The notes under the pieces: generated by a model
Database searches by the model: none
What the model saw: only the letters and a program-made list of their open reading frames with translations
What the model was told of the DNA's origin: nothing
Source of the DNA: Massariosphaeria phaeospora
Lineage: Eukaryota > Ascomycota > Dothideomycetes > Pleosporales
DNA length: 64,000 bases
Assembly (NCBI GenBank): GCA_011032825.1
Contig: JAADJZ010000016.1
Span: 930,001 to 994,000, forward strand
Reading direction: 5' to 3'
Position numbers and translations under genes: made by a program
Part shown: piece after piece, positions 1-63,250 of the stretch
How the letters are laid out: the number at the start of each line of letters is the position of its first letter
Numbering within the stretch: position 1 is the stretch's first letter

Positions 1-655
1 TTACGTCGCCACTCCCTACTTCCGACGCCGAAACATCATGGTACTTGGAGTTTATTTTTTTACGTCGCCACCTCCACCTGACTCCCAGCTCCACCCACCA
101 TGACTCTTTTCTTGTATTCTTCTTTTTAACTCCACAGCCAGCTCTCACGCACCACATCAGACCAGCTCCCAACACCTTTTTACTCCTACTCCACTGCCCA
201 CTCTCCACTCCAGCGCCATAGTATTTGATACTTCCGGTTTTATTTCCCCTTCCAACTCCCGCTCCACTCCAAACACCATGGACCCATTTGGAGGTTTTTT
301 TCACTTGGCTACTCCACTCCGAACGCCATGCCATTTTGGTCTCATGGTTTCATTCCGCCCCCCTGCGACTCCCAACTCCCACACCAAACACCATGTCAAC
401 CTTCCAGCAATCTTTTATTCCTCTCTTCTCTTCCTCACCCCCACTCCCACTCCGGCTCCGGCTCCTCTCTCCCCATGACTTCTCGTCAATAACTTTTTAT
501 TCTTCCTCCTCCCCTCCCTTCCCGCACTCACACACCCATGTCCTTCCAATGTTTAATTTTTATTGCCCCCAAAGGCCCCTTGTGCAGAACTGTAAAGAAG
601 AAGAAGAAGAGGCACAACGCTCGCAGACGAAGGGCTTATATACCTCTTCTCCCGT
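1..655 (-). repeat. Array 1: two-box modules on the minus strand
   Basis: Pyrimidine-rich on the plus strand. On the minus strand it carries about eight modules of an A-rich box, a non-conserved spacer and ATGG, roughly every 62 bp. Plus-strand complements with exactly 18 nt between box and CCAT are TTTTATT 558-564/CCAT 536-539, TTTTATT 495-501/CCAT 473-476, TTTTATT 413-419/CCAT 391-394 and TTTTATT 238-244/CCAT 216-219. Looser copies end at CCAT 276-279 (15 nt) and CCAT 98-101 (21 nt). ATGG is often followed on the minus strand by TGTTTGGAGTGGAG, close to the array 2 form ATGGTGCTGGAGTGGGG. The array runs off the left edge. ORFs here are low-complexity and not credible. Confidence 0.75.
635..642 (-). 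promoter_or_regulatory. TATA box heading array 1
   Basis: CTTATATA on the plus strand reads TATATAAG on the minus strand and is followed there by CCC and a CT-rich tract ending in TTTACAG, as after the array 2 TATA boxes. The array 1 modules lie just downstream on the minus strand, the first heptamer about 75 bp away. No clear GATGATG-type box is visible upstream. Confidence 0.6.
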
Positions 656-1111
656 GCTCTCCCATGAACGCACAATGACTGATGACTAGTGACTAAGCAG
701 TCGACACATGGTAAGAGCAAACACGCAATGCGATATCGACATAGAATTATCCCGTTCATCTACCCTGCCTACCCTGCCCTCCATAACCATATCCTCATGT
801 GCTCTCCTCTCCCCACCACCCTCCGCATTGGCAAAATCTTTTTACACTTCTATGGCCCGTCGGTGCTCACCATCGCCATCGCCACCGTCATCCACCGCTC
901 ACCTCACCCCACCAAAAGAAAAGAACCATACCGCGGGTTCCGCCCCAGTCAGTACGAATCCGCACAAATCCCACAAGCAAAAACCCCCAATCCGTTATAA
1001 ATTTTCGCCTCGACAACGCCCGCACAAATGCATACACAACACACACACACACACATACATCCTCCTCCCAGCTCACCCAGCGCCCATCCCGCAGTGTTTA
1101 TTATCAACGAG
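656..1111. other. Intergenic stretch without a recognised gene
   Basis: Lies between array 1 and the end of the ERV46 gene. It holds an AC dinucleotide run near 1040-1053 and otherwise C-rich sequence. The open frames are short, overlapping and resemble no family I recognise. Confidence 0.6.
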
Positions 1112-2679
1112 TTAATTCGAGTGCATCTTCTTCACGCGATTAACCCCCTCATACAGCGCGCGATCCACCGCCGCCGCCACCGTCAACGTCCCGCCAATAA
1201 CCGCACACAAGCCAACGAGGAAGTTGGAGAAGGATTTAGGGCGGACTTCGCGGTTGATGACTTTCATGGGGGAGATATCCTGCGCGCGGTTAGTGAATGG
1301 AACGCACGGCTTGGCCGATGAGAGCGGGCGTGAGTGAGTGCGGATTGGATGGGTGGGGATACGTACGTAGGAGAAGAAGACGCCCGGGATACCGCCGCGC
1401 GCATGCACGCGCTCCTTGTGGTTCTCGTCGTCGGCGCCGCCGAGCAGACTGCGCTTGTGGCTGGTGACGGAGTACTGGTGCGTCTCGATGCTGCCCTTGT
1501 AGGTGCCGTCGATGGTGGCGCCGAGCAGGTCGTCGTGTTTGGCGGAGCGCGGCGCTTCCTTCTCCCAGCCGAGCGGGAGGTACGCGGTAGACACGACTTT
1601 GACAAAGTACATGAAGTTGTAGGCCTTCTCGTCGGTCTTCTGGTCGGTGCCGTCCAGCGGGTTGATGTGGTGGTTGGTCCAGCCGGCGGGGCCCGTCGCC
1701 TGGTGCTTCTTCTGCATGTCCTGGACCACCACGTCGCTGAGCTGCGGGCCGAAGCGCAGGTTGTGGATTTTGTGCGTGAAGGTGTGGGTTTCGTCTTTGA
1801 AGTAGTTTTCCAGATCGTGCACGTGCAGGTTGCCGTTGGAGAAGGACTTGCCGGGCGCGATGTGGAAGTTGCCAATGACCTTGTTGACGCGGATGCCACC
1901 CTCGATGCGGCACCCCTCTTTCCGCTGTTCGTCCAGATGCTCGGCGTAGTGTTCGCGGTCGCACTGTTCTACGCCCTCGCCACGGCCGAAGGACCAGGAG
2001 ATGGAGGCGTAGGCGTCGCGGACATCGTCGCAGGTGTTGCAGCAGCCGGCTTTCTGGGCATGGGCGGGCGAGGGGGCACCGTAGCATTCGCCGCAATATT
2101 CGGGGTCGAGATGTGAGGCTTCGTCCTTGTGTCTGGTTGTCTCCTGTTAGCCAACCCTGCCAATGTCCTCGATTGCGCCGGCTTACAGATCCAGAGCCTT
2201 GATCTCGATGACCTTGCTCCCTTCGCTTTCAGGCGACAACCGCACTTTACTGACTCCGTGCATGACACCCATTTGTATCTCGCCCGAGACATCCATAACG
2301 TCGAGTGTGAGGAGTTCGCAAGGGACGCGGGGGAAAGTAATGTTCATGGAGATCTCCATCTTCTCTCCTACGAGCCAGAGTCAGCATCTTCCACAGTGTT
2401 GCAACCTTCTAAGCTCCTAGACAGTCCCGGCTCCCGTAATTCATCCCCACCCTCTACCCCCCAAAAACGCGAAAGACACGACCTACCTCTCCCCTTGTCC
2501 ACTACGAGCTCCGGCCGCACAATCACCCTCGTATAGTCCGCCCACTCGCCCCAAACCAACCAGAACACTACCAGCAAGCTCGTAATCGTCACAATGCCCC
2601 CCGATGTGGTCCGCACGCGCGCATCCTCGACCGTCTTCGTGAACGCATCGAGCCGGTTGAAGCGGGACTTGGCCGGCAT
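1112..2679 (-). CDS. ERV46: ER-vesicle protein Erv46 (COPII vesicle cargo receptor subunit)
   Basis: Exons on the minus strand: 2679-2487, 2367-2187, 2132-1367 and 1279-1112, giving 435 residues; all junctions follow GT-AG with consistent phase. Erv46 forms a complex with Erv41 that cycles between ER and Golgi and retrieves escaped ER proteins. The N-terminus (MPAKSRFNRLDAFTKTVED) is typical of the family. A membrane segment lies at about residues 25-45 and another near the C-terminus (FLVGLCAVIGGTLTVAAAV). The lumenal part holds the paired cysteine motifs CGEC (137-140) and CCNTC (154-158). Length matches the usual 400-435 residues. The stop is followed closely by non-coding sequence. Identification rests on whole-length resemblance and is secure. 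Confidence 0.95.
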
Positions 2680-3199
2680 TGTTGCGATCTAGCAGCTATT
2701 ATATTCGGGCGGAGGTACGCGTAAGGGCGGAGAGGCGTGAGGCTGTCTGCTCGTGCAGCGTCGTCGCACACGAAATGTGGTGTCGCACGGTGGGGGACCT
2801 TCACACGGCGCCGGGCAATTGGGATTGATCGAGTGAAAGTAAAGGAAAGAGGTTGCACAGCTCGTGCTAAGGCGACTTTGGCATTGTCCAGGGAAAGAGG
2901 AGGCCAGGTGAAAGGTGACGGCGCAGGTCTCGGATTCGGCTGAATAAAGGACAGCTATGCGAACTGATGTTTTAGCTCAGAGGTCGGATCCCTGCAGCAC
3001 GCGCTAGACGAGAACGGCGTAGTAGATCCAACAAGCACGTGGCAGGCGGTTCACCTGCACATCAAGTCCAACATTAGTCTAGTACACTGTAGGTGACACG
3101 GCGGCTTGAGTGCATCGCAAAACAAACAAATTTATTCCTAAGTAAAGGCAGTTGGGAATCACAAAATGTGTATCAATCAATTCTTCGGAAACATGCAGC
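2680..3199. promoter_or_regulatory. Upstream region of ERV46 and downstream region of the sulfate permease
   Basis: About 520 bp between the ERV46 start and the permease stop, both on the minus strand. It must contain the ERV46 promoter and the permease 3' end. No TATA box or repeat stands out. Confidence 0.5.
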
Positions 3200-9728: not shown

Positions 9729-9739
9729 ACATGGCGGAA

Positions 9740-36316: not shown

Positions 36317-36353
36317 CTAGGAGAGTGGTCGTGAGCCGCTCTTGTTGATTTCA

Positions 36354-36648: not shown

Positions 36649-36722
36649 CTGGACGAGACAAAAGGCCAGCGTAAGGTACGATGGGGAATTGGTGATAGAG
36701 GGGAATCAATAGCCTGAGATAC

Positions 36723-36874
36723 GGTGATAGTGATCTACAGCGCAGAGGAGATAAAACACACATACCACTTCACAGCGTACGTACATAAGCACTCCCTCTT
36801 CTCTTCTACCTTCCTACCCCAAAGTCTCTCTACAATGTTTCAAAAAACTCTGCAAGCCTAACACTATGCTGCTT
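36723..36874 (+). repeat. Array 2 unit 20
   Basis: GGTGATAGTGATCTACAGCG from 36723, TACATAAG 36782-36789, TTCAAAA 36839-36845, spacer 20 nt, ATGCTGCTTGG 36866. Confidence 0.65.
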
Positions 36875-36949
36875 GGACAACTGGAACAGAAGATGCTATT
36901 AGGGGTAAGAGATGTTGATGGACTGGGATGAAGCGTGTGTGATACCCAT

Positions 36950-37098
36950 GGTGATGATGATAAGAATCCCCAGGGCGATAGGAAACTCGACAGACAGACA
37001 GTTAGAGAGGTATATAAGTCCCTCAATCAACGCTCCTCTAATTTTCCCTTCCTCATCTAAAAGTCCCTCTCTCGCTTCGAGGAGGTAAATGGTTGAAG
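36950..37098 (+). repeat. Array 2 unit 21
   Basis: GGTGATGATGATAAGAATCC from 36950, TATATAAG 37011-37018, TCTAAAA 37056-37062. The nearest ATGG is 26 nt on (37089), outside the usual spacing. Confidence 0.6.
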
Positions 37099-37230
37099 AA
37101 TGGTCCATATGGCGCTGCGGCAGGTTTCTGGATATCACTCTGCATGTTGAATAAAAAGAAACGTTGAGTATGGTATGGAGTTTCAGAGCTTTTTCAGTTT
37201 TAGGATGTATGGGTGCGGGGCGAAGACGGA

Positions 37231-37505
37231 GTGATGATGATGCGCGTCATTATCTTAACGAACCATGGTTCCGAGACTGCGCTCCACAAAACGAACCAAC
37301 CACTCCGCTCACGCTGAAAACATATAGGGCTCAGCACAGTGAGCTCGCGAAGACTCTTGATCTTGCATCGCAGCGAGGATATGGGGTCAGGGAGGTATAT
37401 AATCCCGCCATCCACGCTCTTCAATCCGTTCTTTTTTCTTTTCCAGGTCCTCTCTTCTTTTGGAAAACAGAATAAATCAAACCTGAACCTTTTTCATGGC
37501 ACTCC
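37231..37505 (+). repeat. Array 2 unit 22
   Basis: GTGATGATGATGCGCGTC 37231-37248 is unusually far (148 bp) from TATATAAT 37396-37403. AATAAAT 37471-37477, spacer exactly 18 nt, ATGG 37496. Confidence 0.65.
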
Positions 37506-37598
37506 GACGTCTTTGGGGTTTCTCATCCTAGTGAATGGAGAAATCTACGGTCTTGGGAATAATGATAGGAAAAGGAAAGAGGGGACATAGTACCTAAT

Positions 37599-37715
37599 GG
37601 TGATAGTGATCCGCACCACACTAAACCGCAGCGCCGATAGCGGCCTAACACCTATATAAACCCTTTGCTCTGCGCTCTAAGATTCCTTTCTTTGTCCTCA
37701 TGTTAGCTATGGAGG
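37599..37715 (+). repeat. Array 2 unit 23
   Basis: GGTGATAGTGATCCGCACC from 37599, TATATAAA 37653-37660, a weak TCTAAGA at 37676-37682 and ATGG at 37709, 26 nt on. The module here is degenerate. Confidence 0.55.
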
Positions 37716-37805
37716 AAAACAAAGACGTGTTCGGTGTAGAATATGGCGGGCGACTGGTGTTGTGAATAGAAAGATTGTATGCTTCGTATAGCAGTACACA
37801 GTAGT

Positions 37806-37958
37806 CGATGATGCGCATTATCTCAGGAACGAGTTGTGGTTGTAAAGGCGAGTATATAAGCCCCCTCTACACCCTCTCCTCTGCCTTTCTCTCTTCGCAC
37901 ACTGAGCCAAAAACGGCCTATGTCTAAAATTACGCAAACACAGAAACAATGGTTCTCT
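37806..37958 (+). repeat. Array 2 unit 24
   Basis: CGATGATGCGCATT 37806-37819, TATATAAG 37853-37860, TCTAAAA 37923-37929, spacer 19 nt, ATGGTTCTC 37949. The frame begins MVLFGKSRSP and has 20 codons. Confidence 0.75.
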
Positions 37959-38152
37959 TCGGAAAATCGAGGTCCCCGACGGTTGTGAGACTGGGATTGG
38001 ACAACAGTTGAACGGACAAGTCGAAAATCAGCCAGGAGAAGCCAGCCAGACCGTCGGCACACTAGTACATACCCCGAGCCCCAGCATTCTTCAAACAATG
38101 CTGCGCAGCATCACCGCTAGTATTTGTATTAGGTTCCGTTCAAGCGCTGGGG

Positions 38153-38323
38153 TATATAAGTCCCAGCTCGACCACCTCTCCTCCTTCTTACAACCGATCC
38201 AGCGATGTGCTTCGTTTAATAAAACGATGACGTAATAGTGTCATGGTGGAATAAAATCCGGAGAGGTCTCCACGTATGGCGGGTGGTCTCTAAAAGATGT
38301 AGACCAACAGGCTATGGAGTGAG
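38153..38323 (+). repeat. Array 2 unit 25, three consecutive modules
   Basis: TATATAAG 38153-38160 is followed by three modules in a row without further TATA boxes: AATAAAA 38218-38224 / 18 nt / ATGG 38243; AATAAAA 38250-38256 / 19 nt / ATGG 38276; TCTAAAA 38289-38295 / 18 nt / ATGG 38314. This layout matches array 1. Confidence 0.8.
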
Positions 38324-38458
38324 AGGAGTGGGAAGAAGTGCCGCGCTGAGCCTTGAGCCGACGAGAGCACAAGCTTACCACTTTGGTGGATTCTGTTGCT
38401 CATCATCATCAGCCTCCCCTCCCCTCCACTCACGAACCCTAAACAATCAATCTCCGCG

Positions 38459-38595
38459 TATATAAGTCCCCTCCACTACTGTCTTTCTTCCTTTCTCCTC
38501 CGCACACCCCTCGCATGTGAGCTTCTAAAAACGAAAGTGCCCGAATTCGCATAGTGGGTCTCTAAATTCAACAAAGCTATCATCGATGGTGCTGG
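38459..38595 (+). repeat. Array 2 unit 26, two consecutive modules
   Basis: TATATAAG 38459-38466, then TCTAAAA 38524-38530 / 20 nt / ATAG 38551 and TCTAAAT 38561-38567 / 18 nt / ATGGTGCTGG 38586. The second ATG opens a 114-codon basic, then His-rich frame (MVLERRRRGRKKG) that runs into the next unit. Confidence 0.75.
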
Positions 38596-38784
38596 AGAGA
38601 AGGAGAAGGGGGAGAAAGAAGGGAAGACTTAGCTTAGACGGAGCCTGGGATAACGATCGTTGTAGCGACATAAACGTGAGCATAGGCGCGTTCCGAACTG
38701 CTCACTATCATCACCACCAACCAACCATCATCATTACTCTCATCACCACGTTCCAATCCTCTTACCTACATCACCGCACATACA

Positions 38785-38892
38785 TACATAAGCCTCTCCC
38801 CCTCTCCCCCTCCCCCCCCACACCCACACACACGCCAACACTACCCTCCCACACGTCTCCAAAAGCCCCATCTCTGGCGATTATGGTGTTTT
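38785..38892 (+). repeat. Array 2 unit 27
   Basis: TACATAAG 38785-38792, TCCAAAA 38858-38864, spacer 18 nt, ATGGTGTTTTG 38883. The frame has 15 codons. Confidence 0.65.
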
Positions 38893-39010
38893 GTTTTCCC
38901 CAAACAAAAATCGGTGAAAAGCATGAGTGAGTGGCCGAGCCGTGGATAGATTGAACAACCAAAACCCTGTAATCGCTCGCTGCATGGTACCGGTGCGGGT
39001 CCTCGATTGT

Positions 39011-39170
39011 CGATGATGATGAATAGTGACAATGTTACTACAGTTATTCGTTGCAAGCCCCGCTATCTATATAGATGGCACCTATTCTCATTCTCAATCT
39101 CCCTTACCCAACCCAACTTCTAGCTCCCTCTCTCTCTAAAAACCCCGCCGACACCGCCCCATGGCTTACC
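39011..39170 (+). repeat. Array 2 unit 28 (last)
   Basis: CGATGATGATGAATAGTGAC 39011-39030, TATATAG 39068-39074, TCTAAAA 39135-39141, spacer 19 nt, ATGG 39161. The frame has 34 codons (MAYPPAQLSS). Confidence 0.65.
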
Positions 39171-47850: not shown

Positions 47851-48419
47851 ATCCTAACTCGAGGTCCTGTCTACCTACCTACCTTATCTTTTTTTTTCCC
47901 GCTCGCTCCGAAGACCGTTGACCAATATGGCGCTTTCAACACCATCGGGCCCCTGTCCGATGTTGCTGATCATGTGCAGAACGCGTCGGTGATGATGATG
48001 ATGACCACATATCTCCTTCCTCCTCCTCCTCCTCCTTCCTCCTCCTCCTCAATAACGCACGGCATCCCGTTCTTCGCACCACCACCGCCATGCACATCGC
48101 CCAGTCCAGTCCAGTCGAACTTCCAGTAACACATCGTCATCTGGCAGTAGACTTCGAGACGAGGAGGGGGAAGACCCACATGTTAGGATTTTGTCACAGG
48201 TTTAGAACACAACTACGGCAGGCTGCAGAGAAGAGAGGACAGCGTAGAGTATATTCTCCAACGGACGGCCTCCGAAACACATGCGTTTCAGTCTCGGCGC
48301 TTTTCTTTCCCCCGCATGCTTTAATCCACAAAATCGTTTATCGTGCAGTGAGTGAAAGAGCGAGACAAGGTGCCACCCACATGCATAGCCACGCTCGTCG
48401 TTTTTTTTATTTTGGCGAG
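47851..48419. other. Intergenic region with CCT microsatellite
   Basis: A CCTCCTCCTCCTCCTCC run near 48015-48050 and a GATGATGATGATGA run near 47990. No gene recognised before array 3 begins. Confidence 0.5.
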
Positions 48420-49150
48420 GCTTGGGGCTGGGATGGGGCACAGCCGGCCTCCATGGATCTTCAGCTACGCGATTTATGTTTTGCTTCCGCATAGTTTAGT
48501 CAAGATGATGTTTTAAGCGGTGGGTTGAGACGGAGCGACATTTTAGAGTCGTATCAAGTTTTTGTTTGCTGAGGGTGGGGGCTGGGAGGCGGACCCTATG
48601 GGTGGGTGAAGTGTGGGTTTGGGGTTTGTTTCGCATAGTTGAGGAGAGATAGTGTTTTGAGCGGTGGGGACGGAGGAACATCAAGAGTGTGGTGTTGGGT
48701 TTAGCTTTTTGTTTGGCAAGGGGCTGGGCTGGGGCGCGGGCTCCATGGGCGGGTGAAGTGTGGGTTTAGGGTTTGTCTTCCGCATGGGTGGATGATGCAT
48801 CCTTTTAAGCGGTGGGGACGAAAACACATTTCACATTCGTGTCTCGTGTTTTTTACTTTGCGAGGGACTTGGGCACGACTCGATGAACGGTGAAGTGTGG
48901 GTTCAGGGTTTGTCTTCCGCATATGTGGATGACGATAGCGTTTGAGCGGTCAGGACGGAACAACATTCTAGGGTCTAGTATTAAGTTTTTGTTTGGCGAG
49001 AGGCTGGGGCGCAGGCGCTATATGACATGCGGCTTAACGTTTTTTGGTTTTTGTTTCGCATGTCTGAGGAGACATCAGTTTTAAGAATGGCCAGGTGGAT
49101 AGGGGACGAGACAGGCGGCACATATAACAAATCTGTTGTATCTTTTGTGG
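48420..49150 (-). repeat. Array 3, zone a: about 141-bp units
   Basis: Five units marked by CCGCATAG-like sequence at 48490, 48631, 48781, 48917 and 49058, with shared GCGGTGGGGACGGA, TTTTTGTTTGGCGAG and GTGAAGTGTGGGTTT. On the minus strand they contain the two-box module, for example CCCTAAA (complement of TTTAGGG 48765-48771), 18 nt, ATGG (CCAT 48743-48746). Confidence 0.8.
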
Positions 49151-49199
49151 GTTTGGAGTCTCGAGACGCACCTCATGGAATATTTATCTAGTTCTTTTT

Positions 49200-52100
49200 T
49201 CAAGTTCTTGTGTCTTTTTGTCCGCAGTCGCGTTCTGGTTCGAGTTTTTAGTATCTGAGTATCGCGAGAGAGGAGCGAGACAGGGACAGGTTCTCCATGC
49301 GTTTTTTGTCGGATTTCTTTCCATTAACTGCGCAGTTCTTCTCTTCTCTTCTCTTCTCCATGGACATCCGGGAAGGATTATTTATTCTGTCTACTCTATA
49401 ATTCTCCTAGAGGTCAAGTTTTTCCGAGTCGCTCCATGGTAATTATGTACTAAGGATTAGATATCGCGATTGATTATTTCAGTAGACGAGGGAGAGAGAA
49501 GTTCTCCATGTCACTGCTGTCATTACCATTTTTCAGTATCGTTTACATTGGTTCCTCGCTCTTCTTCTCTGCTCCATGACTTGATCAGGTGATTTATTTG
49601 TTTCGAATTACTCTATGGCAATGAAAGAAGTGCTGTCACGGTTTATAGCCCTTACCCTATGAGATGGATAAGGGTACTACGCTTATCTAGGACTAGCGCT
49701 GTCTGTGCTTTCGCACCTACAAATTCTGTAGCTTCTAGATAATACAACCTCAGTTCAATTCTTCAATATTCCGCACATGCGCGTTGCCCACAATCCTCAA
49801 CAAGTGCTCCATTTGGTAACCCGCATGCTAATTTTCGATCCAAGTTTCATCGGTTCCTCGTTCTTCTCTTCTCTACTCCATGTATCGCCTTAAGTTCAAT
49901 TTATTCCAAGTCGCTCCATAGTCATCGGGATACAGTATCTTAGTATTGCGAGCAAGGGGAAGGGGGGAGGGAGAGAGAAGTTCTCCATAGCGGCAGTTTC
50001 TATGTGCTTTTTTCCATCAACTCTGCACTTCTTCTCTTTTCTACTCCATGGATTTCCTGCTGATCCAATTTTTCTAAGTCGCTCCATGGCAACGAAGTTC
50101 CTAAGGTCGGATATAGTAATTAAGTTTCGCGAGAGAGAAGCGCTCCATTTCATCTTCCATCGACTTCGCACTTCTTCTCCGCTCTACTCCATGAACCTCT
50201 TTATCTCTTTATTCCGAGTCGCTCCATAGTAAGTTTGCGTTGTGTTTTCGGTTACTTCACAACACGGCGACGCTGCCCATAGCCAGCAGCTAGTCCCAAG
50301 ACTTTTACCACTGCGCATTTCCTTCTCCTTCCTACGCCATAGATATCTTTAAGCTCGATTCTTTCCAAGTCGCGCCATAGCGATGATATTCCGAAGATTT
50401 GATATTGTAATCGAGTATTGCGAGAGAGAAGCGCTTCATGTCGTCTCAGTCGTTATTGTTTTTTACGGTTACTGCGCATTTTCTCTCCTCTCTACTCCAT
50501 CGATACCTCGCTCATCAGGTTTTTCTGGATCTCTTCATGTGACCAATATCCAAGGGTTTTGGTTCCTACACAACACAACACAGCGACACTGTTCCATATA
50601 CTCGTCATATTTCTTTTTCAACAGCTCCGGGCGTGATCTCTACTCCATATTGTCGTTAACTTTTGTATTTATTTCACACCAACCCCGCGCTTCCTCTTTC
50701 TCTCTTCTCCACTCCATGATCTGTCCTCTGGTTCCTTTTATTCCGAGTCTCTCCATGAAGCATCCGGTCCAAACTTTTGTTACTGCACGACTCGGCGACA
50801 CTGTCCCATAGGCTCTTGATAGTGTTCTTTTCAGCGGCTCTGGGCGTGCTCTCTACTTCTCCATGCATGTAATATCTTCTTTACGACAGAAGGGGGTAGA
50901 GACCATGCCAACGTCTTCTGGTCTTTTTGATATTCACTCCGCACTTGCTCTTCTTCCTTTCTTCTCCTCTCTACTCCATGAAAGTTTGGATGTTCGATTT
51001 ATTCCGAGTCGCTCCATGAAACAGCCGTCCAAAGTTTTCTGCTGCACGACTCAGCGACACTGCTCTATAAGCTTTGGATGGTCTCGTTTTAAAGACTCCG
51101 GGAGTGCTCTCTACTTCTTCATGTGATCTAGAGTCTAGAATTTTAGTTGGTGCGCAACACGGCGACACTGTCCCATAAACTGGTCCCGTGTTTCTTTTTA
51201 GAGACTCTGGGCGTCCTCTCTGCTTCTTCATGTTGTCCAAAGCCTAGAAGTTATAGTTGCTGCGCAACACGGCGACACTTTCCTATAGTGCTGTAGAATT
51301 TTCCTTTCGAAGACTCCGGGCGTGCTCTTCACTCCATGCTGTCGTTGTCATTCGTTTTTGTTATGTTTCGAGATACCTTGTTGTGCTCGAAGGCGAAGGA
51401 AGGGCTCTGCACGCCATGTGCAATTGCGTTTAAAATTTGTATCCCTATGCGAGTCGTCGTTCTTTTCACTTCTCCATGTACAGAGGTTAGTGTCTTTTTG
51501 TTTTTATTACGTTCCGAGACACATGGTTGTGTTTCGAAGGTAGAGAATAGACTTTTCTCTCCACTCCATGTCGTTGATTACGCTGTCTTGATTGTATCCC
51601 CGTGCGTGCGAGTCGTCGTGCTCGCCACTTCTCCATTTTGTCATGATCTTTTGTATTCATCACGTTCCCAGGCACACTGTCGTACTTCAAGGAATGACTC
51701 TCCACTTCATGTACCTGATTTCCTTGGTTTTGTTTTATCCCTTCACATTTTGCTGTGCTCTCCACTTCTTCATGTAACGTAGTTAGTCCTTTTTTGTTTT
51801 TTTCCGTTCTGAGGCATGTTGTTGTGCGTCGACGGCTCGGGAAGGACTCTCCAGGCCATCGTCTTTGGACATCTCTGGTTTTATTAAATTTCGCGCGAGT
51901 TCGTTGTGCTCTCTACTCCATGGCGCAGGCCTTTCCCGTATCCATCAGGTTCCGAGACGCGTACTTGTGCTTCCAGGCTCCGGACATGCTCCCCACGACA
52001 TGGTCAATTCCCTTTTGAGTTTGTATCTCCATGCAAGTCGTTGTTCTCTCTACTTCCCCATGCGACACGTCGTCTACATTTTGATTTATTCCGCTCCTAT

Positions 52101-52960
52101 ACGCTTCCAAGGCTCTCGAAGCACCGCTCCACGACATCGACTCGGATGATTCGGATTTTGAGATTATATTCCCGTGCGAGTCGTTGTGCTCACCACTTCT
52201 CCATAAGCTCTTCCATTTCAAGTTTTATTGCGTTCCTGGTGTTTTGTTGTGCTTCGATTACTCTCGACGTGCTCTCCACTCCACTCCATGTCGGTGAAAT
52301 CCACAGTTTTTATTATATCATTTCCGTGTCGCGTGCGTGTAGGTGAAGAGATGAGGGGACGAGAGGAGCGAGAAGAAGACTTTATCGGAGTCATCTTAGT
52401 TAGTGCAAACAACGAACCATGGTTCTGAGAGCCTCCACAAAATAGCCACCCATTCAGCTTCCGCTGAATGCAAATAAGGCTCCGCTTGAGCTGCTCGCGC
52501 AAACTTTTATCCTATGCGTGTTGCTGTGCGCGATGTACAGGACGTCAGCAAGTTTTAATAGTTCAGAACAGGAATAGGGCTTTTGATTCATAAGATTCAG
52601 GCCGCAACGTTTTAGTTTTATCATACTCTGACGCGCTTCGAAGGCTTCAGACGTGCTCTCTACTCCACTCCATGTCAACAAAGTCCTCAGTGTTTATTGT
52701 ATCCCCATGCAAACCGTCGTCGTGTTCCATGTAAAGTGCGTCAACATGTTTTTTGGTTCCAACCGTCGCTTCATAACATGTAGGCCGCAACGTTTTGTTT
52801 TTATCACGCTCCTACGCGCTTTGTTGTGTTTCGACATGTCGTTGACCTCTTCAGTTTTTAAGATATTCCCGTGCATGTCGACCCCCTCCATTATGGGTAC
52901 CTCGACGCGTTTTGAAGGTTTGAAGCAACAACAGGTCTTTGAAATTCATCGTAGCGAGCT
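49200..52960 (-). repeat. Array 3, zone b: CTCTACTCCATG / CCGAGTCGCTCCATG units
   Basis: Diverged repeats of about 140 bp in the left part and about 108 bp around 51056-51272. Plus-strand marks are CTTCTCTTCTCTACTCCATG and TTTATTCCGAGTCGCTCCAT, and to the right ACACGGCGACACTGTCCCAT with TTTTTAGAGACTCTGGGCGT. Read on the minus strand, exact 18-nt modules include AATAAA (49900-49905)/ATGG (49878-49881), AATAAAA (50736-50742)/ATGG (50714-50717) and AATAAA (50998-51003)/ATGG (50976-50979). No coding frame is credible. Confidence 0.8.
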
Positions 52961-52979
52961 GTTTAAGGTCTAGTATTTA

Positions 52980-54240
52980 TATTCTTCCCCTCTGTACTGC
53001 TGCGGCGCTTTTCGCACTGCTGCGGCACTCCTGCGGCACTTTGCGAAGACCACCGCAGAAGTACCGCGGCGCTTTTTCCACCATTACTTTCAACTTCATT
53101 GGTGTAGATAAGTCGCTATGATAGTTTTTTTATTCTTTCTTCACCCTATACCGCGGCACATTTTATCGCAGCTATACTTTGCGGCGTTTTTTGCACTGCT
53201 GCGGTACTTTGCGGTACTCGTGCGGCGTTTTGCCAAGAGTGCTGCAGAAGTGCCGCACGATTGCGGCACTTTGAGCGCATCTAACAGGCTGCGCAAATAC
53301 ACTGCGAAAAAAGTTGCGCAATTAAATAAATAAACTTGCTCTACCTTTCTATCTACCTAGATATTGCACTAAGGCGTGGGGGTGTGGTGTAGACTGCGGC
53401 GTTTTGGGTGTACATCTGCGGCACCTGCGGCGTTTTGCCAAGAGTGCCGCAGACTACCGCAGACCTGCGGCACTTTGAGCGCATCTAATAGCCAGCGTCA
53501 ATATGCTGCAAAAACTGTTGCTATTCGAAAGAAGCGTATTTTCTCCACATTTTTATGTACCCAGATGTTACATTAAGGCGTGGGGGTGCGTCGTGTAGGC
53601 TGCGCGGTGTTTTGGTGGCACTTTTGCGGCACTTTGCCAAGACCGCCGCGGATCTGCGGCACTTCTGCGGCGCTTTTCGCACCACCGCAGCAAAAGGATA
53701 TCAACACAACACCACCACCACAGCATGCTCAGCCATCGCTATACATTTCGAAGACTCAGGCTGCGCTGCGGTACTGCAGCGGCACTTTCGCGGCGCTTTT
53801 TACACCACTGCGACGCTTCTGCGGTGCTTTTGCGGCACTCTTGGCAAAGCGCGGCACTCCTGCGGCATTTCCGCCCCAGGCATCAGAGAAACACTGCTAC
53901 TGCCGCTTGAAAGTGCGGCTGTGTTCCTTGGAAGATGGAGAACGCGATGCAGTACTGCTGCGGCACTTATCGCACCGCCGTGGTTCTTTGCGGCGCTTTT
54001 TGCACCACCGCAGATGGCAGAGAATGAAGACGCGACACTGCTACCGCCGCTTGAAAGTGCGGTCATGTTCTTTGGAAGTCTTCTACGTTGCAGTACTGCA
54101 GCGGCACTTGTCGCATCTCTGCAGCGCTTTCTGCACCGCTGCGGCACTTCCGCGGCACTTTTTGGACTACCGCGGAGGAGGAAAAGAGCAGAGATTCAAG
54201 AACGCAACACCGCTAGCACGACATATCGTTCGAGGCCATG
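52980..54240. repeat. Array 3, zone c: GCGGCACTTT-rich block
   Basis: Dozens of near-copies of TGCGGCACTTTTGCGGC and its inverse GCCGCAG in about 1.2 kb, much richer in GC than the flanks and full of potential hairpins. Frames of more than 220 codons stay open because the repeat lacks stops; their translations are repeats of RHFCGTF-type sequence, so no gene is called. Confidence 0.8.
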
Positions 54241-57000
54241 ATATTTGAAGGTTCGGACGCTGCTTTCGACTTCTCCATGCGTCAAACTGCTTAGTCTTTT
54301 GATCCTGTCCATCAAACAGGTCGTCAGTTGCTTTGTAAAGAGGGTGGGAAAAGGGGGAGAGAGAATGGTGCTCGATGATGGAGATATTGGTCTGTCTTGA
54401 TTGTGTCTAGCGAGTTGTCGTTGTTCTTAAAAGAGGTCGAGGAAGAGGACGAAAGAGTACTGCTCCATGACAACTAAAGCCATGCGATTTCCAAGGTTCG
54501 GAACAGGTTCTCCATATCATGGCGGACCGCAGCATTTTTTTTTTGATTTAATTCTCGAGTTGACGAGTTGTTCATGGTATGGTATGGGGTCGACGAAGGG
54601 AACAGAGACCACTGTTCCATAAGCGGAAGAAAAAGCAGGTTTGAAACGCTCAGAACGGGCACCCCGGGTTTACGTGGGTATTTTTTTTCTTTCGATTCAC
54701 CACATCAGGGTAATTTTGGTAGTATTAGAAGGGTTCAAGAAGGGGAACGAGGGCGTGCTGCTCCATGAGAGAGATGTAAACCTGATTTTGAAGATTCACG
54801 GCATGGAAATTCATCCTCTACGTTTTGGAGGAGAGCGACGAGAGCTGAGAACGACGCAAGACTGCCACCGCCACTGCGCCGCCGCATCGAGGTTTGTCCG
54901 TTGCATTTTCCGAGGTACAGAACATCCGTCACCTTTGTTCTCATTTGTTCGCACCTTTTATCTCATTGCTCTGCCCATAGATGAGTTGTTGGACGACTGC
55001 TACAAGAGACTGCTCCGTGAACCACAAATACAAGGAATTTTAACGCCCAGGTCATGGCTCCTCCTCCTCCAAGTTTTTGAGAAGAACGAGGGAGGAAAAT
55101 TTCGTAAGACCACTAGCACGACCACTGCCGCATCGCCACTGTTTGGTGCGAGTTTTGAAGGCACGAGCCCGCCTCATTCCATTCTCGTCTTTTCATTTCA
55201 TTCTCCTGCCCATGCGCGAGATGTTCTTTCTTCTGAGGATTGAAGAAGGCGAACGAGAGGGAGCTGGTCCATGAGAGCTGGGAGTTGTGATTTCGAAAGT
55301 TCACGGCATGAGAATTCGATCTTCAAAGTTTTTTAAGAGGGATGGGGAAAGCAGAGGACGAACGCAACACCGCCACCACCATTACCGCCGCATAGACACT
55401 TATGGGTGCAGGTTTTGGAGGCCCAGGACATGGTTTGCACCTTTTTCCTTTTCTATTATCGCTTCTCCTTTGTATTTCATTGTGCTGTTTGTTCGAGTGT
55501 TGTTCTGGGTAAGAGGGTGCTGTTCCATGTGACAGGCATCGCCTGATCTTTACACTCCAGGGCATCGAGGTTTTTATCTGTGTTATTAAAGAGGAGACTG
55601 ATGCAACACCGCCACCGACCCATGACCAGGTCTGCTGTCATTTTCAAAGGTTTCGCACGTGCTTTCCACGTCATTCTGCTATCCTATACTCTTTTCATTC
55701 CCCTTATAGGCCAGTCGTCGTTCAATTGTTAAAGTCGAGCAAGAGCAGGGAGAGGGTTCTGGTCCATTCGTAGGCCAACGTCGGATCTTAACAGTCCCAG
55801 GCATCCTGACTATGGTTGGTGCTTTTAAGAAGCAGAGAAGGAAAAGGGATCGAGTCGGCACTACTCTATAACTCTCATTCCTTGTTGTTTTGCGAGGGCT
55901 CCGGACGCTCTTCAACGCCATTTCAACATCTTATGCTGTTTTGATTCTGACCATAGGCCAATTGTGATTGTCGGTAGAAAGTCTGCGGAAGAGGAACGAG
56001 AGATCACTGCTCAGTGCTCTATGCGTCGGACACTGAGGATTCTTGACGGTCCCAGGCATCGAAGGTATTTTCCGTGTTTTCAAGAAGCAGGGAGGAGGAG
56101 ACGAGGCCGAGACGGCACTGCTTCATGCCATTCTTTGTCTTCTGTTTTAACTTTCTCGAGGGCGGGACACGCTTCCATGTCGCGTGACTGTATCTTTTTT
56201 CGTTTGATTCTCAAGAGGAACGAGAGGCTGCTGCAGCATGTGTAGGGCACTATCGTACTTTTGACAGTCAAAGACGTCTAAATTTCTCGGTATTTTTGAG
56301 AAGCAGAGGGAAGGAAATGAGGCCGAGACGGCACTGCTCCATGGCTGGCTATATCGTAGGTCTTTCGAGAGCTCCGGACGCGCTTTCCACGTCATTTCAT
56401 TCTCCTCTCTTGCTTTGGTTATCATAACAAGATTGCTCTTGGTGTTAGAAGGGTGGAAGGAAGGAAGAGAGAGCACTGCTCCATCGAGGCCCGATGCCCA
56501 ATTTTGGATGGTTCAGAACATGTGGCCTCATGTTCAATGTTTCTGGGCAGGACAGGGAAGAAAGACGACACCGCCACCGCCACCGCCACATAGACTCTCG
56601 TTCCGACGTATTCGACGGTTCGGCGACGTACTTTCGAAGTCATGTTACCGTCCCATTTGCATTTCATTCAGCTCATAGGATACTTGTTGTTGTTCTATAG
56701 GGATTGTGGAAGGAAAGAGACAGCACGGCTCCATTCAACTCGACAATCCGGAGTTTGGACAGTTCAGGGCATGGAATCTCTCTCTGGTCAATGCTAAAGA
56801 GGAGAACGACGCAACACCAACACCGCTGCATTGAATGCTTTCTCTGCGTTTCTGAAAGCTCCACACGCAATTTCCACTCCACATGATTGAACTCGGCTTT
56901 ATTTTTTATCTGTAGGCCAGTGGACGAGGCGGAGCTGCTTCCATGGGGAAACAACCCATTCTTTTCCATCGATGTCCCACTGGACAGAACGGCACTGCTT
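54241..57000 (-). repeat. Array 3, zone d: CTGCTCCATG / CAACACCGCCACCGCC units
   Basis: Diverged repeats with plus-strand marks CACTGCTCCATG, CCCAGGCATCGAGGTTTTT and GACGCAACACCGCCACCGCC. Minus-strand modules with 17-19 nt spacing are visible, for instance at the CCATG sites near 54277 (complement of TTTTGAT), 54764 (TTTTGAA) and 55525 (CTTTACA). Translations are not protein-like. Confidence 0.75.
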
Positions 57001-58170
57001 CTATGAGCGTAGTCAACTATTTCTTCTATATCGAGTAGGTTCACAGTTCTACTTCATGAGTAAGGCTGTACTGACTTTTCGATTCTCTCTATGTTTGGAT
57101 AGTTCCAGCGTTTCAGAGCGGCCAACGCAAACACATTCTCCCTTACAGCCATTGTTTTAACGGGTAGGTCTACCGCTTTCTTTTGCTTCATCCGGAAACA
57201 CCAGATTTTTTTTAGTTTCTTACGGAGTTGAAAGCAATATAGTGTTTGAAAAGAGGAGACGGGGCGACACAGCCACATGGTGTGAACTGTCGGTCCATGG
57301 AGTCTCCGTATAGAATTTGTGGAGTATCATTGAGATTCCGCCATGACAAACTTGCCTAGGAGTTTAGGTTCTAAGGAGAAGAGAAGAGGTAGAAGAACAA
57401 GTCCAGTGAGTAGAACGAGGGTTCACATGGAGTGATTGCACCTGCCTTTCTGTTGACCCACATGTAACAGACGGCTTCAAGTTTCTGGAGGCTCGAGATG
57501 CGGCACATCCTGCGGCATGGCGACAGATTCCGGTCATGAGAAGGCTCGCGTGATGATTTGGTTCTGAGGAAGAAGACCGAGCGGGCAAAACCACGGTCCA
57601 CATGAAACGGATTGTGAGGTGTTTTAGTCCCTCCAAATCATGTTCTACTCCATGCCTGAGAGTTCAACTCAGTTCGATAATTCGAAATCGGAGTGGAAAA
57701 ATATCGTACGTGATAAGAGGAGAAGCCGGCAGAACCAAATATCACATAGCTCGTCGACTCCTACGTCCCGGTCGCTCCATAGGACAGCGCGCGACTCGTC
57801 TCGGGAACGACAACCAGTGCTAAGAAATGTTAAAGTAAGAGAAAGAGCTGACGGAGCCACATTGAATAGTTGTAGTACTTATTTTTAGTCGCTCATGTAC
57901 TAAAAGAGGGGATGTTTCGATAGCTTGAAACCATTCTCTCGTAGATTTAGAAGAGAAAGTCCGACCACATGCATAGATGCCCCAGAGCCTTCAATTACTC
58001 CAGATTGTCCCTCTACTGCATGCCTCAGAGGCCGATCGTTTTCCATAACGCCATAGGCAATTGAACTTTCTTTCCAGCAAAAGAGCAAGCTCGCAGGACC
58101 ACATGTGTGGACTATTCATAATGTTTGTAGTTGCTCCTCTCTCTCTGCTCCATAGAGGGGCACCAGACAA

Positions 58171-58178
58171 TTTTATAA
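58171..58178 (-). promoter_or_regulatory. TATA-like box in array 3
   Basis: TTTTATAA on the plus strand reads TTATAAAA on the minus strand, preceded there by CAGCG. It precedes the ATGGAGCAGAGAG and ACTACAAA/ATGTGG elements of that unit, though closer (about 45 bp) than in array 2. Confidence 0.4.
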
Positions 58179-61100
58179 CGCTGAACCAGTGTCGAGACAT
58201 CGCACAGCAAGAGAAGGAGCTCGCAGAATCACATCAACACGTTGTCTTGAGTTTTTAGTCGTTCCAGACCATTCTCTTTCTTTCTCTCTTTACTCCTCTT
58301 CCCCTATCTCCATATGCACTACCATGCCCATTTTTACAACCTGACGCCGCGGCTTTCGAGATCTCCGCAGAGCCACATGTCCGAAATCGTCTATGATCTT
58401 TAGTCGTTCCAAGCTATATCTGCTCCTTGCACTCCGACTCCTCACGTTTCTTTTTAACCCGGATCCTGCATCGAGAGATGTTGAAGAAGAATACAGACCG
58501 CTGGAACCACATTGAAGTTGAAATACTGTATTTCGGTCGCCCCAAAGTCTTTCTCCACTCAACAAACCACCGCAAACGCCATCCCAGTCTACTCCGTCGG
58601 GTTTTGAATCTTCACGGATCTCCAAGCAACGACTGATCCATGCGGATGAAACTGAGGGTATAGTAGAGACCGCATACATCCACGAGCAGACCTTTTTGAT
58701 CTTGCTTTTGACGGCACAACATTGGACGCTGTCTGAATTGTTTTATTCCAGTTCTGCCGCCATAGGCATTGGGATGATGAGTTTAGGAGTAAAGGCAAGG
58801 CTTTGAGATGTATGTTGGTGGGAATTGAGAGAGACGGGCATAGGTAGCCCGAGGAGATGATTCAATGTCGAAGCAGTTTGATCGGACGGGGCTCGTCGCA
58901 GCGACCATGCTCGTTGTTGCTCGATTTTCAGTTGCTGGAGGACATATAGTAAAATGGGATTGAGGTTCGAAAGGCGCAAAAGACACACATATACACAGCC
59001 TGTAAACAGTTTCTAGAACCTGGCGTCCGAGAAACTCATGCCTTTTGTCGGTTTGGGGTTTGTTTTGGGTAGAGCTAGAAAGAGCGAAGGACATTCCAGT
59101 GCGACGTGCAGGTTTTATTCCCGAAGTAGACTGGCTGTTTCCAACAACATATATACGCTTAGCTGCGATCTTTTGCAGCGATGACCCCATTGCTCCGCCG
59201 CGTCGACGGTTCGAGAGGTATCAATTTTAGAATGGCTGGGGAGACGCGCACATGTGAGGACTCGCCCTGCATACAGAATCCAGGAGTCAGAAAACACATG
59301 TTCTTGGTTGAATCTGAGTTTGTTGTATTATGAAGTTCAAATCCAGAGGAACATACCTTTGTGCAGTCTCCGTTTCAGCCCAGACACAGAAATCTCATTC
59401 ATCCATTTCTTGAATGATTTGATTTCTGGTTCCAGAGAGACATGCTTGATACTGCTTAGTGGAGGAATATGCGGTTGGGATTGAACTGGAATTTAGCAAA
59501 GTCCACAGAGCCAGCCACATAACATGATCCCGTATTTCGTACCAGAATCAGCCTTCCGGTCGCTCAACGAACACTATCTGGGTCCATTTTACTTTTTATA
59601 GAGCTCGAGAGCATATCAATTTTTTTTGCATGTCTTTAATCCCGGACACAAGAGAATTACAAGATAATAAGCGGAGACATTTTTTGACGATAAGTGTTTG
59701 GAGTTCCAGAGGCAAGAGTCTCATGGGTATGTAACCCTAACGTTTCGTTCTCCATCTCGGACGGGCGGCAATCTTTCTTTCATCGAAAGGGTTTGGCATT
59801 GTTTTTCATATGTCCTGGTATCCATTTCATTTCTAGAATGGTTTCAACGCTCAGAAGGCTCATTGAAATAACCAGTGCGTTTTTAGGATCCTCGTATTAT
59901 TCAAGGGAATTTTTGTCTGATTCGAGGTAAAAAAGTGGTACAGCTGAGAAGATCACCGCGCATTTAACGGTATGGTAAGGAGTTATTTCCACGGAGGTCC
60001 ATAGAACAGCTAAATCCATCTTTCGAAACGTGGGCTTATAGATGATTTCACAAGTTTTCCAACAACACGCGTTATTGTAAAGTGCTTTTATCTCACACAA
60101 AGTTCATTTATAGTAGTGAAAAGGCTTTTGTCGTACCCAAGTTCTATAGAGTCGGGATATCTCGTGATGCTTGAATGAATGGAGAAGAAGTGCTGATCCG
60201 GACATTGAGGGTTGACTGCGAGAAACGACTCATATTCGAATCGTATTGCAAGTTTGTTCTAACTCGGGCTATTCCGCCGCAGTAGTTAGTCGAACACATG
60301 CGCTTTTCGCGTTTTCTTTTGATAAAGTCCGCTCAAATCCTCATGAGGTGCGTATGCTCAAGATTTCACTTCTCCGAATCCATGCCGAGGAGGCGCGGGA
60401 AGAAGTCCGAACATGAGAGTGCAAATCGTCCCATTCAGAATGAACTGTAGAGAGATACGCGTCAAGACGGGTTTTCCAGTGCTCATGTTTGTGTCGCCGA
60501 TGCTGTTTTAACTCGACTTCGGTTTTTTTGAGATTGAGTACTGGGGTTCGAGAGGAAAGACACCGGCCATGGGTATGCTGGATTTGGACTTTTAGTCCCT
60601 TTCTACTTTAGGAATGCTCATGTATTCCATCGTCGAGCTTTTAGATTCCATGGAGTTTGACAATATTTTCCTGGAAACAGCCATAACGATGTTGATTGCG
60701 ATATTCATCGTTGGGTTCAGCCGTCTTTGACTCAACTTCAGCCACTGCGAAGTAGATATACACAATTGATGAGGCCGACCGCATATATCCGACTCTTTCA
60801 AGTTTCCAGCTACTTTCCGCTCACAAAGGCTCGTACAGGCCCGTAGACGTTCTTTTAGAGTCCATCAAGGGTCAATGGCTGGATGAGAGGGAGGGCTGAA
60901 GCATAGGTCAGTGTTGCTGTAGAAAAAGCTGGGTGGCTTCGGTTCGTACTATCGAGCTTGTAGGCTTTTGCGGCAGTGGTAGGCGGGACTTCAATGGGGC
61001 CCGGAGGCGTTTTTAAATACCGATAAAGAAAGCCTTGGAAGAGAGGAGCCAAAGAAATCCAAGCATGCAAGGGTTGTAGCGTGGTTTTGTAACTCGCATA

Positions 61101-62534
61101 TTAATTCAGTATAATCGATGTTCGTGTACTTATGTTGGTGTAGAAAAGAGAGAGAAGAAGAAGCCCGCAGATCTCCAGACATCATGCATATAGGCTAGGC
61201 TTTCGAAGTATAGGGCTTATGGACACAAAAGACGATTATTTCGGTTCATCGACAGCTGGCGGCTCTCCATTTCGACATTGTCTGAGTGAATGAAGTCCTC
61301 CACACATGGAGATCTTCGTATGCGTCTTTCATATCTCGCTTTTCCCAGAGACACATGTGGGCGCACGCGCGGGTGTTCTATCTAGCGTGGCTCTGCAGAC
61401 CCTTTACAATGATACCGCATCGCTAAATTCGAGTCGCGAAGAACCCGCGCATCAACAAACTATCCCTTTTTATTTTAGTACGTCCAGGCTTGCGTAGAAT
61501 GACTTTTCGAGCCGAAGTCCACCGGCTTCCCATGATGCCGAGATATGCTCATTTCGGGTTCGCGGGCCGCGGATTAATAGAAAAATAGCTTCGACATGTA
61601 CGACCATGAAAAACTTTTTGCTTTAGTTTGCGTATCGTCCACTTTCCAGCTCGGAGACTCCCATCGGGGGTTGCTGTCGTTCCTTATTTTCATGACTCAG
61701 TTCCATGCCCTATTTCGATATATATCGCTGAAGCATACCTAATCTTTTTAGATATTCGGAAGAAGGGACCCCGAGGACTCCATACAGGAAGGCTACATCT
61801 GGTATGTTTTCAATTTCCATTTCCATGGATCTCATCGGACGCAAATTCTTTCTCTTTTAGTTCCAGTTCTAGGTCCACTCGACATAGGTAATCGCTAGGA
61901 GAAGTTCCCAAGTACTTCAACATGGGCATTGTCACCCTCGTATTTTCTACTCCAACTTCCAGGCACCTTGTTGATCCGTAGGTATTGCTTTTGCATGCCG
62001 GTCCCAAGATGCTCAACATGATATCACGTGGGAATGGATCTGGAACCTTCACATTTGTACGAGCCATCTACCTTTTTACTTTTATTTCCCAAGACACTCA
62101 TGACAAGGCCGAATGCGTAATTTTCGAAGTAGACAACTCCTAGCAGAGGATTCGCCAGGCAGTCCGCATCAAATAAGACGACGTGGAGTTCGGAAACAGG
62201 AAGATCGCTCCATCAAAGAGCCCACGCCTGTTTTCTCGTGGACCTTTTCCCGCCAATCTCCATTTTTCAAGGCTGGATAGTTTTAGGAATAGTATCTGTC
62301 GACCTAAGGTATTTGAGGGAAAGAAGCAACAGCGTCTACATCCAGAACTCCTCGGGTTTTCCATGTCGAAGGCCTGTTGCCAGCTTCACATGCTACCTCT
62401 TCCAGAGTTTGTTTTTTGAACGCGCGGAGCGCGGCGTCCTCATGGCACTTATTACTGTTTCTTTAGATATCGTGTCCGTGACCCAGGGTAGTTGGAGGAA
62501 GAACGAAAGCGTCCACATTCAGTCCTCCTCGCGT

Positions 62535-62571
62535 AATCTATATTCAAGGCCCAGCGCCCACTTCTCACGTG
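62535..62571 (-). promoter_or_regulatory. CACGTG plus TATA block in array 3
   Basis: On the minus strand CACGTG (62571-62566) is followed after about 20 bp by GAATATAGATT (62545-62535). About 75 bp downstream comes TCTAAAG (62467-62461), then 17 nt, then ATGA (62443). This is the order and spacing of array 2 units 9 and 10, on the opposite strand. Confidence 0.6.
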
Positions 62572-62713
62572 ACTTCTACTCTTAAGCTTTTCTTGGATTT
62601 TCGGAAGCGCGTATTCCTCATGTCACTAATTCCTATCTTTTTAGATGTGTACTTCGACATTGAATACTCGAGGGCAGAAGAAGCAGCGTCCACATAGATC
62701 ACTGTTGGAGTTA

Positions 62714-62722
62714 CTTATATTC
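62714..62722 (-). promoter_or_regulatory. TATA box in array 3
   Basis: CTTATATTC reads GAATATAAG on the minus strand, preceded by a GGCGCC palindrome. The heptamer TCTAAAA follows about 72 bp on (62645-62639), then 17 nt and ATGAGG. Confidence 0.6.
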
Positions 62723-63250
62723 TAGGCGCGGCGCCAGCTTCTCATAAATCTGTTCCTGCCTCTCTCTTTTTCTCTAAGCCCGGGGAGCGCGGAATCTCCA
62801 TGGTTCCAACCGATGCCGTTTTATAGAGATTGTTTCCTTCAACGTTGGGGAGATGAGGATTGAAGGGGATGGTTCCCATGGAAAGATAGCCCAGTGAATT
62901 CTCTGCATAACCGGGCGCCAGTTTCCTATGTACACCTTCGCAGTGTATGTTTTTCAATCCATCGTATAGTTTGTTTCGTATTTTCGCGCTTCCACGCCGA
63001 AAGACAGTATCAGACTCTGAGCTCGCATCAACCGAGAACATGGCCTCGTAGATATTGAGTTTTCGATCTTCCATGTCGGTGTCCGTGATATCTTTCTCAA
63101 GGTACTCAGTGCCCATGTGCACAGACGTTTATCTATTTTGTATCATTCCAGAACTTGGTATATACCAGGAACATTTCGTTCTCGGAGCACCTTTTTATCG
63201 TAAATTGCAGGAGCCGGCTCCTTCATCAATGAAGACTGCATATTGTTACA

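Follow-up and report, generated by a model that had tools for sequence, protein, structure and literature searches.

In CRISPR (clustered regularly interspaced short palindromic repeats) arrays, a leader or promoter is followed, all on one strand, by repeated constant parts with unique segments of nearly uniform length between them, and animal PIWI-interacting RNA (piRNA) clusters give long unistrand precursors that are mosaics of transposon pieces. The sections of PMC3597512 on the 21U-RNA loci of Caenorhabditis elegans give an 8-nt core, CTGTTTCA, and a spacer of ~35-42 nt before the 21-nt RNA, and those of PMC2666730 on V(D)J (variable, diversity, joining) recombination signals give a CACAGTG heptamer and an A-rich nonamer, ACAAAAACC, around a poorly conserved spacer of 12 or 23 bp. 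Here we analyse a 64,000-nt stretch of the genome of the ascomycete Massariosphaeria phaeospora (hereafter the window: positions 930,001-994,000 of a contig of 1.10 Mb, JAADJZ010000016.1, in an assembly of 42.08 Mb and 51 contigs, the one genome used throughout), in which a preliminary description had noted a two-box module, an A-rich heptamer and an ATG separated by 17-20 nt of changing sequence, in three arrays.

We find that TATATAAG is followed on a single strand, ~74 nt downstream, by a module of the form [A/T][A/C]N-RAAA - N17-19 - (C)ATG[G/T] (R, A or G; the variable segment is called N18 below), often with a second module ~47 nt further on and with more than 100 modules in the long arrays. 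The N18 segments are nearly all distinct and outpace both the boxes and the linkers in divergence while keeping their length. A variable segment of fixed length that lies between constant boxes and is repeated more than 100 times behind a single promoter, in one of many arrays across a eukaryotic genome, has the anatomy of a repertoire of guides or recognition sequences.

Results

Spacing was assessed by counting AAAA-Nk-ATG at k = 17-20 in each array and in 200 first-order shuffles per array. Array 1 (minus strand, positions 1-800) held 15 such pairs against 0.9 in the shuffles (z = 10.8), array 2 (plus strand, ~31.6-39.2 kb) 43 against 3.8 (z = 17.3) and array 3 (minus strand, ~48.3-63.2 kb) 147 against a shuffle mean of 16.2 with a maximum of 36 (z = 23.2), which places the module in the three arrays, and on the strands, that the preliminary description had named. 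Off-peak spacings numbered 8 observed and 5.8 shuffled in array 1, 51 and 27.0 in array 2, and 141 and 122.8 in array 3. TAAAA-ATGG pairs at 17-20 nt occurred 19 times in array 2 (shuffle mean 0.3), and all four [ATC][ACT]TAAAA matches of array 1 have ATGG exactly 18 nt downstream, as had been reported. The spacing peak was absent from the opposite strands of the arrays and from the genic parts of the window, and the window arrays had no clear second peak one helical turn longer or shorter.

The module was then followed into 20 further stretches of 7-10 kb, most of them picked for pattern matches and a few as array neighbours or blanks; some of these adjoin one another, and one (L047) is the continuation of array 1. 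The AAAA-ATG peak at 17-20 nt lay on one dominant strand in 16 of the 20, with a small additional count on the other strand in L034, L041 and L043; L039, L049 and L050 had no spacing peak and L048 carries just the head of array 3. Genome-wide, TCTAAAA-N17..19-ATGG gave 143 exact matches and the spacing control TCTAAAA-N24..26-ATGG gave 26, with 55 and 56 respectively in the backward-read controls. The shorter pattern TAAAA-N17..19-ATGG clusters at many places in the genome (806 matches against 643 in a backward-read control that is unmatched because its letters differ). Some 73 of the first 100 such places were clustered, with ~8 model modules per place, which by extrapolation suggests a genome total of some thousands of modules.

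An iteratively refined two-box model describes the module as [A/T][A/C]N-[A/G]AA(A), mostly 17-19 nt, and (C)ATG[G/T]. At 11 bits it matched 1,089 times on module strands, 199 times on the opposite strands and 255 times in a first-order shuffle; counts made with it thus contain chance matches, and the module statistics draw on related copies that are not fully independent. The A-rich heptamers proposed earlier are indeed the commonest forms of box 1 (TCTAAAA 53, AATAAAA 46 and ACTAAAA 32 of 1,073 model matches), but the core that all share is shorter, just [A/G]AA(A), usually after [A/T][A/C]N; the ATG of box 2 stands, with its consensus restated as (C)ATG[G/T]. In an ATG-anchored profile of 609 strict modules, in which the share of exactly 18 nt is slightly favoured because 18 was tried first in the assignment, little was shared beyond the A-rich box and ATG[G/T]: spacer composition was near-flat except for C at the last base, and the sequence after the ATG was G/T-rich. 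The linkers, the 'repeats' of these arrays, are alike only locally and differ between arrays.

Upstream of the modules sits a promoter-like element, TATATAAGCCC, which the preliminary description had not mentioned. Both in the units of array 2 and at the heads of arrays 1 and 3, TATATAAG is followed by a CT-rich stretch. The longer form GTATATAAGCCC has 156 copies in the genome, often clustered, and none in the backward-read control. Across the window, the sampled stretches and the hold-out described below, 76 of 97 TATATAA sites had a relaxed-box module starting 50-100 nt downstream, the share at positions drawn at random from these sequences being 30%. The distance had a median of 74 nt (quartiles 68 and 78), and a second ATG followed the first by 46-49 nt in 22 of the 62 units that have one. 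The hold-out comprised four stretches picked by the promoter pattern alone, where 12 of 13 complete promoters were followed by [A/G]AAA-N17..19-ATG starting 66-93 nt downstream; the single miss departs from this layout by one letter in box 1, and a 14th promoter is cut by the end of its stretch. Genome-wide, TATATAAG-N50..78-TCTAAAA gave 112 matches (5 backward-read), and those listed span 17 contigs. In array 2, a TGATGATGATRCGCAC-like stretch ~70-100 nt upstream of many TATATAAG copies was noticed by eye and is perhaps an upstream activating site.

Two layouts recur. In the first, seen in array 2, L034 and L055, each promoter heads a short unit of one or two modules. Array 2 (31580..39165, plus strand) consists of tandem units, many of ~230-330 bp, with 57 model matches, some of them chance; most units have TATATAAG, the CT-rich stretch and TCTAAAA-N18-ATGG, and a second module is often present. 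One of its ten exact GTATATAAGCCC copies lies at 31887..31898 on the plus strand, the other nine starting at 32173, 32456, 33481, 34304, 34547, 34829, 35161, 36212 and 37852, and a typical TCTAAAA-N18-ATGG module occupies 31966..31991, also on the plus strand. In the second layout, that of array 1 together with L047 and of array 3, a single promoter heads a long array of many modules. Array 1 has ~9 modules of box 1 - N17-19 - ATG within the window (36..561, minus strand) and runs on leftward for ~9 kb past its edge; its head promoter, GTATATAAGCCC, lies at 632..643 on the minus strand with the first box 1 ~80 nt downstream, and its promoter-proximal module, AAAA-N18-ATG at 537..561, also on the minus strand, is among the four exact 18-nt cases. 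Array 3 (48282..63196, minus strand) extends over ~15 kb on a single strand with 178 model matches; 178 of its 355 ATGs fall in modules, and the promoter at its head lies beyond the window, at contig C8:996646-996657 (L048).

Between the body of array 3 and that promoter lies a mobile-element-like insertion with terminal inverted repeats, of which the left part occupies window positions 63325..64000 and which reaches ~C8:996415 (1-2415 of L048, onward from the window); judged by eye, it splits the array within about the fourth module and leaves the head and the promoter beyond it. Four of the five open pieces of the insertion were searched, with no Pfam match.

Several other sequences were observed within the arrays. 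At ~52950-54200 array 3 contains another repeat, with TGCGGCAC/GCGGCGCTTT motifs and a 204-bp tandem unit, and module density is lower there. By eye, 37255-37400 (array 2) and 52410-52500 (array 3) resemble each other (ACGAACCATGGTTC...) and are perhaps a small dispersed element that entered both; a segment whose end is ACAACCTCAGTTCAAT occurs at ~49640-49790 and again at L034 ~3520-3650 and may be a short interspersed element; ~36340-36440 in array 2 is a long inverted repeat resembling the palindrome of a miniature inverted-repeat transposable element (MITE); and the far border of array 1 (L047 1-1000) is AT-rich and looks as if affected by repeat-induced point mutation (RIP).

The variable segments are rarely repeated: after removal of the 15 of 609 strict modules that lay within 10 nt of another, only two spacers were found twice among the remaining 594. 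In 35 same-array pairs picked by the 20 nt upstream, where identity was 0.69-0.94 (boxes 1.0 by definition), spacer identity was 0.29-0.54, whilst the first 12 nt past the ATG, unused for the picking, were 0.54-0.83 identical. Within duplications found by BLAST, identity was 0.934 for the boxes, 0.785 for other aligned positions and 0.656 for the spacers, and 65 comparisons of enclosed spacers, not all of them independent, gave a mean of 0.556 against 0.719 in other 18-column windows (Wilcoxon p = 5.6e-9), 43% of these spacers falling at or below the 5th percentile of such windows. Promoter-proximal spacers were scarcely more alike within loci (identity 0.308) than between them (0.297), compared with 0.406 and 0.286 for the downstream flank; kinship of the upstream flank was weak (0.309 within and 0.274 between).

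Length was assessed independently of the definition of a module, by anchoring duplicates on the upstream flank and leaving the downstream flank free at 5-44 nt. Of the 126 cases obtained, with reciprocal pairs double-counted, 103 had diverged spacers. The gap was 16-19 nt in 79 of the 103 and ended in ATG in 76%; the geometry therefore persists through changes in sequence. These results uphold the earlier argument that selection on the geometry accounts for the pattern better than satellite decay: the peak far exceeds the shuffles, the spacers diverge more than the boxes and flanks, and the spacing outlasts spacer divergence. Two contrary outcomes had been set beforehand, a spacing histogram no sharper than in shuffles and spacers as conserved as the boxes, and neither was seen.

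The modules gave no structural signal. For 150 of the 1,073 modules that were folded, the mean z was -0.12 (sd 1.29), Rfam returned no match above the gathering score in the window, and no complementarity between neighbouring modules was seen by eye.

The genome does encode small-RNA machinery. We found 14 Piwi-domain matches at nine places (one each on C48, C4, C30 and C12, three on C15 and two on C27), several of the copies having in-frame stops that may reflect introns or decay, together with seven matches to RNA-dependent RNA polymerase (RdRP) at five places and the Dicer domain at two. Table 1 of a survey of Pezizomycotina lists 1-7 Argonautes (mean 2.66), 2-5 RdRPs and 0-3 Dicers (PMC4290597); set against that table, nine Argonaute-like places exceed the range and the RdRP and Dicer numbers are ordinary.

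Elsewhere in the window, at 25.1-27.7 kb, lies a kexin gene that shares 82% identity with that of Trematosphaeria pertusa and is near those of other Pleosporales, which places the host in that order. No tRNA genes were found in the window.

Discussion

We tentatively favour, at somewhat less than an even chance, a reading of the arrays as transcribed non-coding cassettes in which the N18 would be the information-bearing, guide-like part. Among the four meanings that the preliminary description had offered for the module, the best fit is a short, unique piece of RNA flanked by constant sequence, and two half-sites for one protein are also plausible. RNA polymerase II would transcribe an array starting from the TATA element, and the two constant boxes would be recognised as RNA, or would act as tiny initiation and end signals, and so delimit the N18. 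The N18 would be renewed under selection for novelty and processed to small RNAs for the enlarged set of Argonautes. A sense product, N18 plus AUG, would be ~21 nt long; an antisense product made via RdRP would be 5' U + N18 + UUU, ~22 nt, with its first U and its last UUU predicted from the invariant A of ATG and the invariant A's of box 1. Either length would be usual for fungal small RNAs. A more far-reaching version, on balance unlikely, is that of a genome-encoded library of probably thousands of unique 18-nt guides, framed by RAAA and AUG boxes, made as 21-22-nt RNAs from dedicated TATA-driven arrays for the enlarged set of Argonautes and rapidly diversified in an arms race, an independent fungal counterpart of piRNA loci and CRISPR.

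Several observations weigh against a guide function. No spacer of the 1,073 had a match with one mismatch or fewer outside its own locus in the 264-276 kb of DNA examined; all ten further matches at that threshold are local duplications, confined to the strand and locus of the spacer itself. Matches elsewhere with two mismatches numbered 27, compared with 12-24 in five shuffles and 24 for reversed spacers; by an arithmetic estimate, ~6 would be expected in the sample if each spacer had one genomic target. Two spacers scanned over all 42 Mb with up to two mismatches gave chance-like matches only, viruses not being searched. Nor was there a consistent preference for 5' U at the first spacer base, T standing at 0.21 for k = 17, 0.18 for k = 18 and 0.39 for k = 19, a value of k whose assignment rules out A. 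The contrast between spacer and flank is not equally sharp on both sides, since 80 pairs picked by their 20-nt downstream flank had an identity of ~0.46 in the 10 nt adjoining the module on its upstream side and of ~0.36 in the spacer, and some duplicated modules (in L045, L047 and L037) retain their spacer. Hypervariability could also come from constrained linkers together with spacers that are merely free, and the excess of Argonautes is circumstantial support.

Two hints were set aside. One of the two spacers scanned genome-wide had four two-mismatch matches sharing one substitution (backward control 1), one in an ankyrin-like frame and one without long frames; the sites are unrelated by eye and were taken as chance, and the other spacer had a single two-mismatch match. 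A resemblance of the spacers to the sense strand of coding sequence (asymmetry correlation 0.62) was not used because an excess of A alone may cause it.

The main rival, which we rate almost as likely as the guide reading, is a two-part binding element, in which one protein or complex would touch both box 1 and ATG(G), with a fixed RNA length or some two turns of the helix between them, and the N18 would carry no information and evolve freely. Such an element could be an initiator with a downstream core-promoter element, the site of an RNA-binding protein or a site acting at the DNA level. Just the boxes and their distance are common to the arrays, and sites bound by proteins typically tolerate a shift of about one base in spacing, as these modules do. 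The failure of the searches made to find spacer targets fits this explanation, as does the upstream flank, whose identity in pairs picked downstream barely exceeds that of the spacer. If each array constrained its own linkers, even a free spacer would seem hypervariable. On the other side, the spacers outpace in divergence linkers that themselves differ between arrays; the window arrays lack a clear peak one helical turn off; and a need for more than 100 sites per array is left unexplained.

Tandem poly(A) or RNA-processing signals, with an A-rich positioning element, cleavage ~18 nt on and a G/T-rich downstream element, are improbable. AATAAA is one of the two commonest hexamers of box 1 and the sequence after the ATG is G/T-rich, but AATAAA (68 of 1,073) is no commoner than TCTAAA (69 of 1,073), which speaks against a poly(A) array. 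The spacing is moreover much tighter than is general at poly(A) sites, the ATG is near-invariant and TATA elements recur inside the array, at intervals of ~230-330 bp over much of array 2. The polyadenylation signal suggested in the preliminary description is thus unlikely.

Slightly less probable still are recombination or diversification signals, in which an enzyme that rearranges DNA would use the boxes as half-sites, in the manner of V(D)J recombination, and the N18 would be the spacer or the coding end. The geometry is like that of the 12/23 signals in the portions of PMC2666730 and PMC2711918 that deal with them, and the spacers appear renewed while the flanks stay; against this, the modules of one array share a direction and follow a promoter, and the boxes are unlike the heptamer and nonamer.

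Start codons with a fixed A-rich leader, heading tiny peptide genes, are very improbable. A TATA element upstream and the form (C)ATGG would suit them, but the start-codon meaning offered earlier fails on several counts. The -3 position shows no purine preference, A being less frequent there at module ATGs than at other ATGs (0.24 against 0.31); module ATGs open frames no longer than those of other ATGs (a median of 18 against 19 codons, a mean of 27.5 against 39.0); and the spacing is no multiple of three. Stop frequency upstream of the modules was likewise equal in all three frames, and protein-coding mini-genes were rejected as a candidate for want of a start context, of long frames and of any difference in stops between frames. 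An ordinary decaying satellite with geometry inherited from recent duplication is equally improbable, since, though local tandem duplications are present, the geometry is common to arrays with unrelated linkers, outlasts spacer divergence and comes with a steady distance from the promoter, and the variable part proved less conserved than the rest of the unit.

Comparison with known systems

Like a CRISPR array, the fungal arrays carry, behind a promoter and on one strand, unique spacers of near-constant length that turn over while their flanks stay. They differ in having loose, array-specific linkers, ~7 constant core letters and segments of 17-19 nt. The Cas12f/TnpB-type domain PF07282 had no match in the genome, other Cas families not being searched, and there was no evidence of acquisition or of protospacers, the spacers having no source with one mismatch or fewer outside their own locus in the DNA examined nor, for two of them, in the whole genome, with viruses not searched.

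With animal piRNA clusters the arrays share long, single-strand, non-coding organisation and a possible link to Argonaute; unlike those clusters, their spacers are framed by boxes and match nothing beyond their own arrays in the DNA examined. Fungal loci for microRNA-like RNAs (milRNAs), QDE-2-interacting RNAs (qiRNAs) and Dicer-independent small interfering RNAs (disiRNAs) offer a parallel in that fungal small-RNA machinery is present in this genome, but the modules here gave no hairpin signal, and to our knowledge no box-framed arrays belong to those classes.

What the V(D)J signals have in common with the module is a spacer of set length but low conservation that lies between an A-rich box and another short one. 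Here the boxes depart from the V(D)J consensus, there is one spacing, and the modules stand in tandem one-strand arrays behind promoters.

The C. elegans piRNA loci with the Ruby motif (PMC3597512) are alike in that a short constant motif stands at a set distance from each of thousands of unique 21-nt segments, which are clustered and form tiny transcription units. The fungal modules instead have boxes on both sides of the variable segment and form long one-strand arrays behind one TATA-containing promoter, with no consistent 5' T. Rather than the Ruby motif, the constant elements found were TATATAAG ~74 nt upstream and RAAA directly before the N18.

No published description of such an element in a fungus was found by full-text searches aimed at one, subscription papers and preprints not being covered. 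Even if the N18 is a mere spacer, a strict two-box element at a steady distance after a TATA promoter at more than 100 places would be an undescribed fungal transcription or RNA element. If the guide reading is right, the arrays work like a guide repertoire, one that we assign to none of the families compared; and if the N18 become RNA, fungi would have a further store of short recognition sequences beside piRNA clusters and CRISPR.

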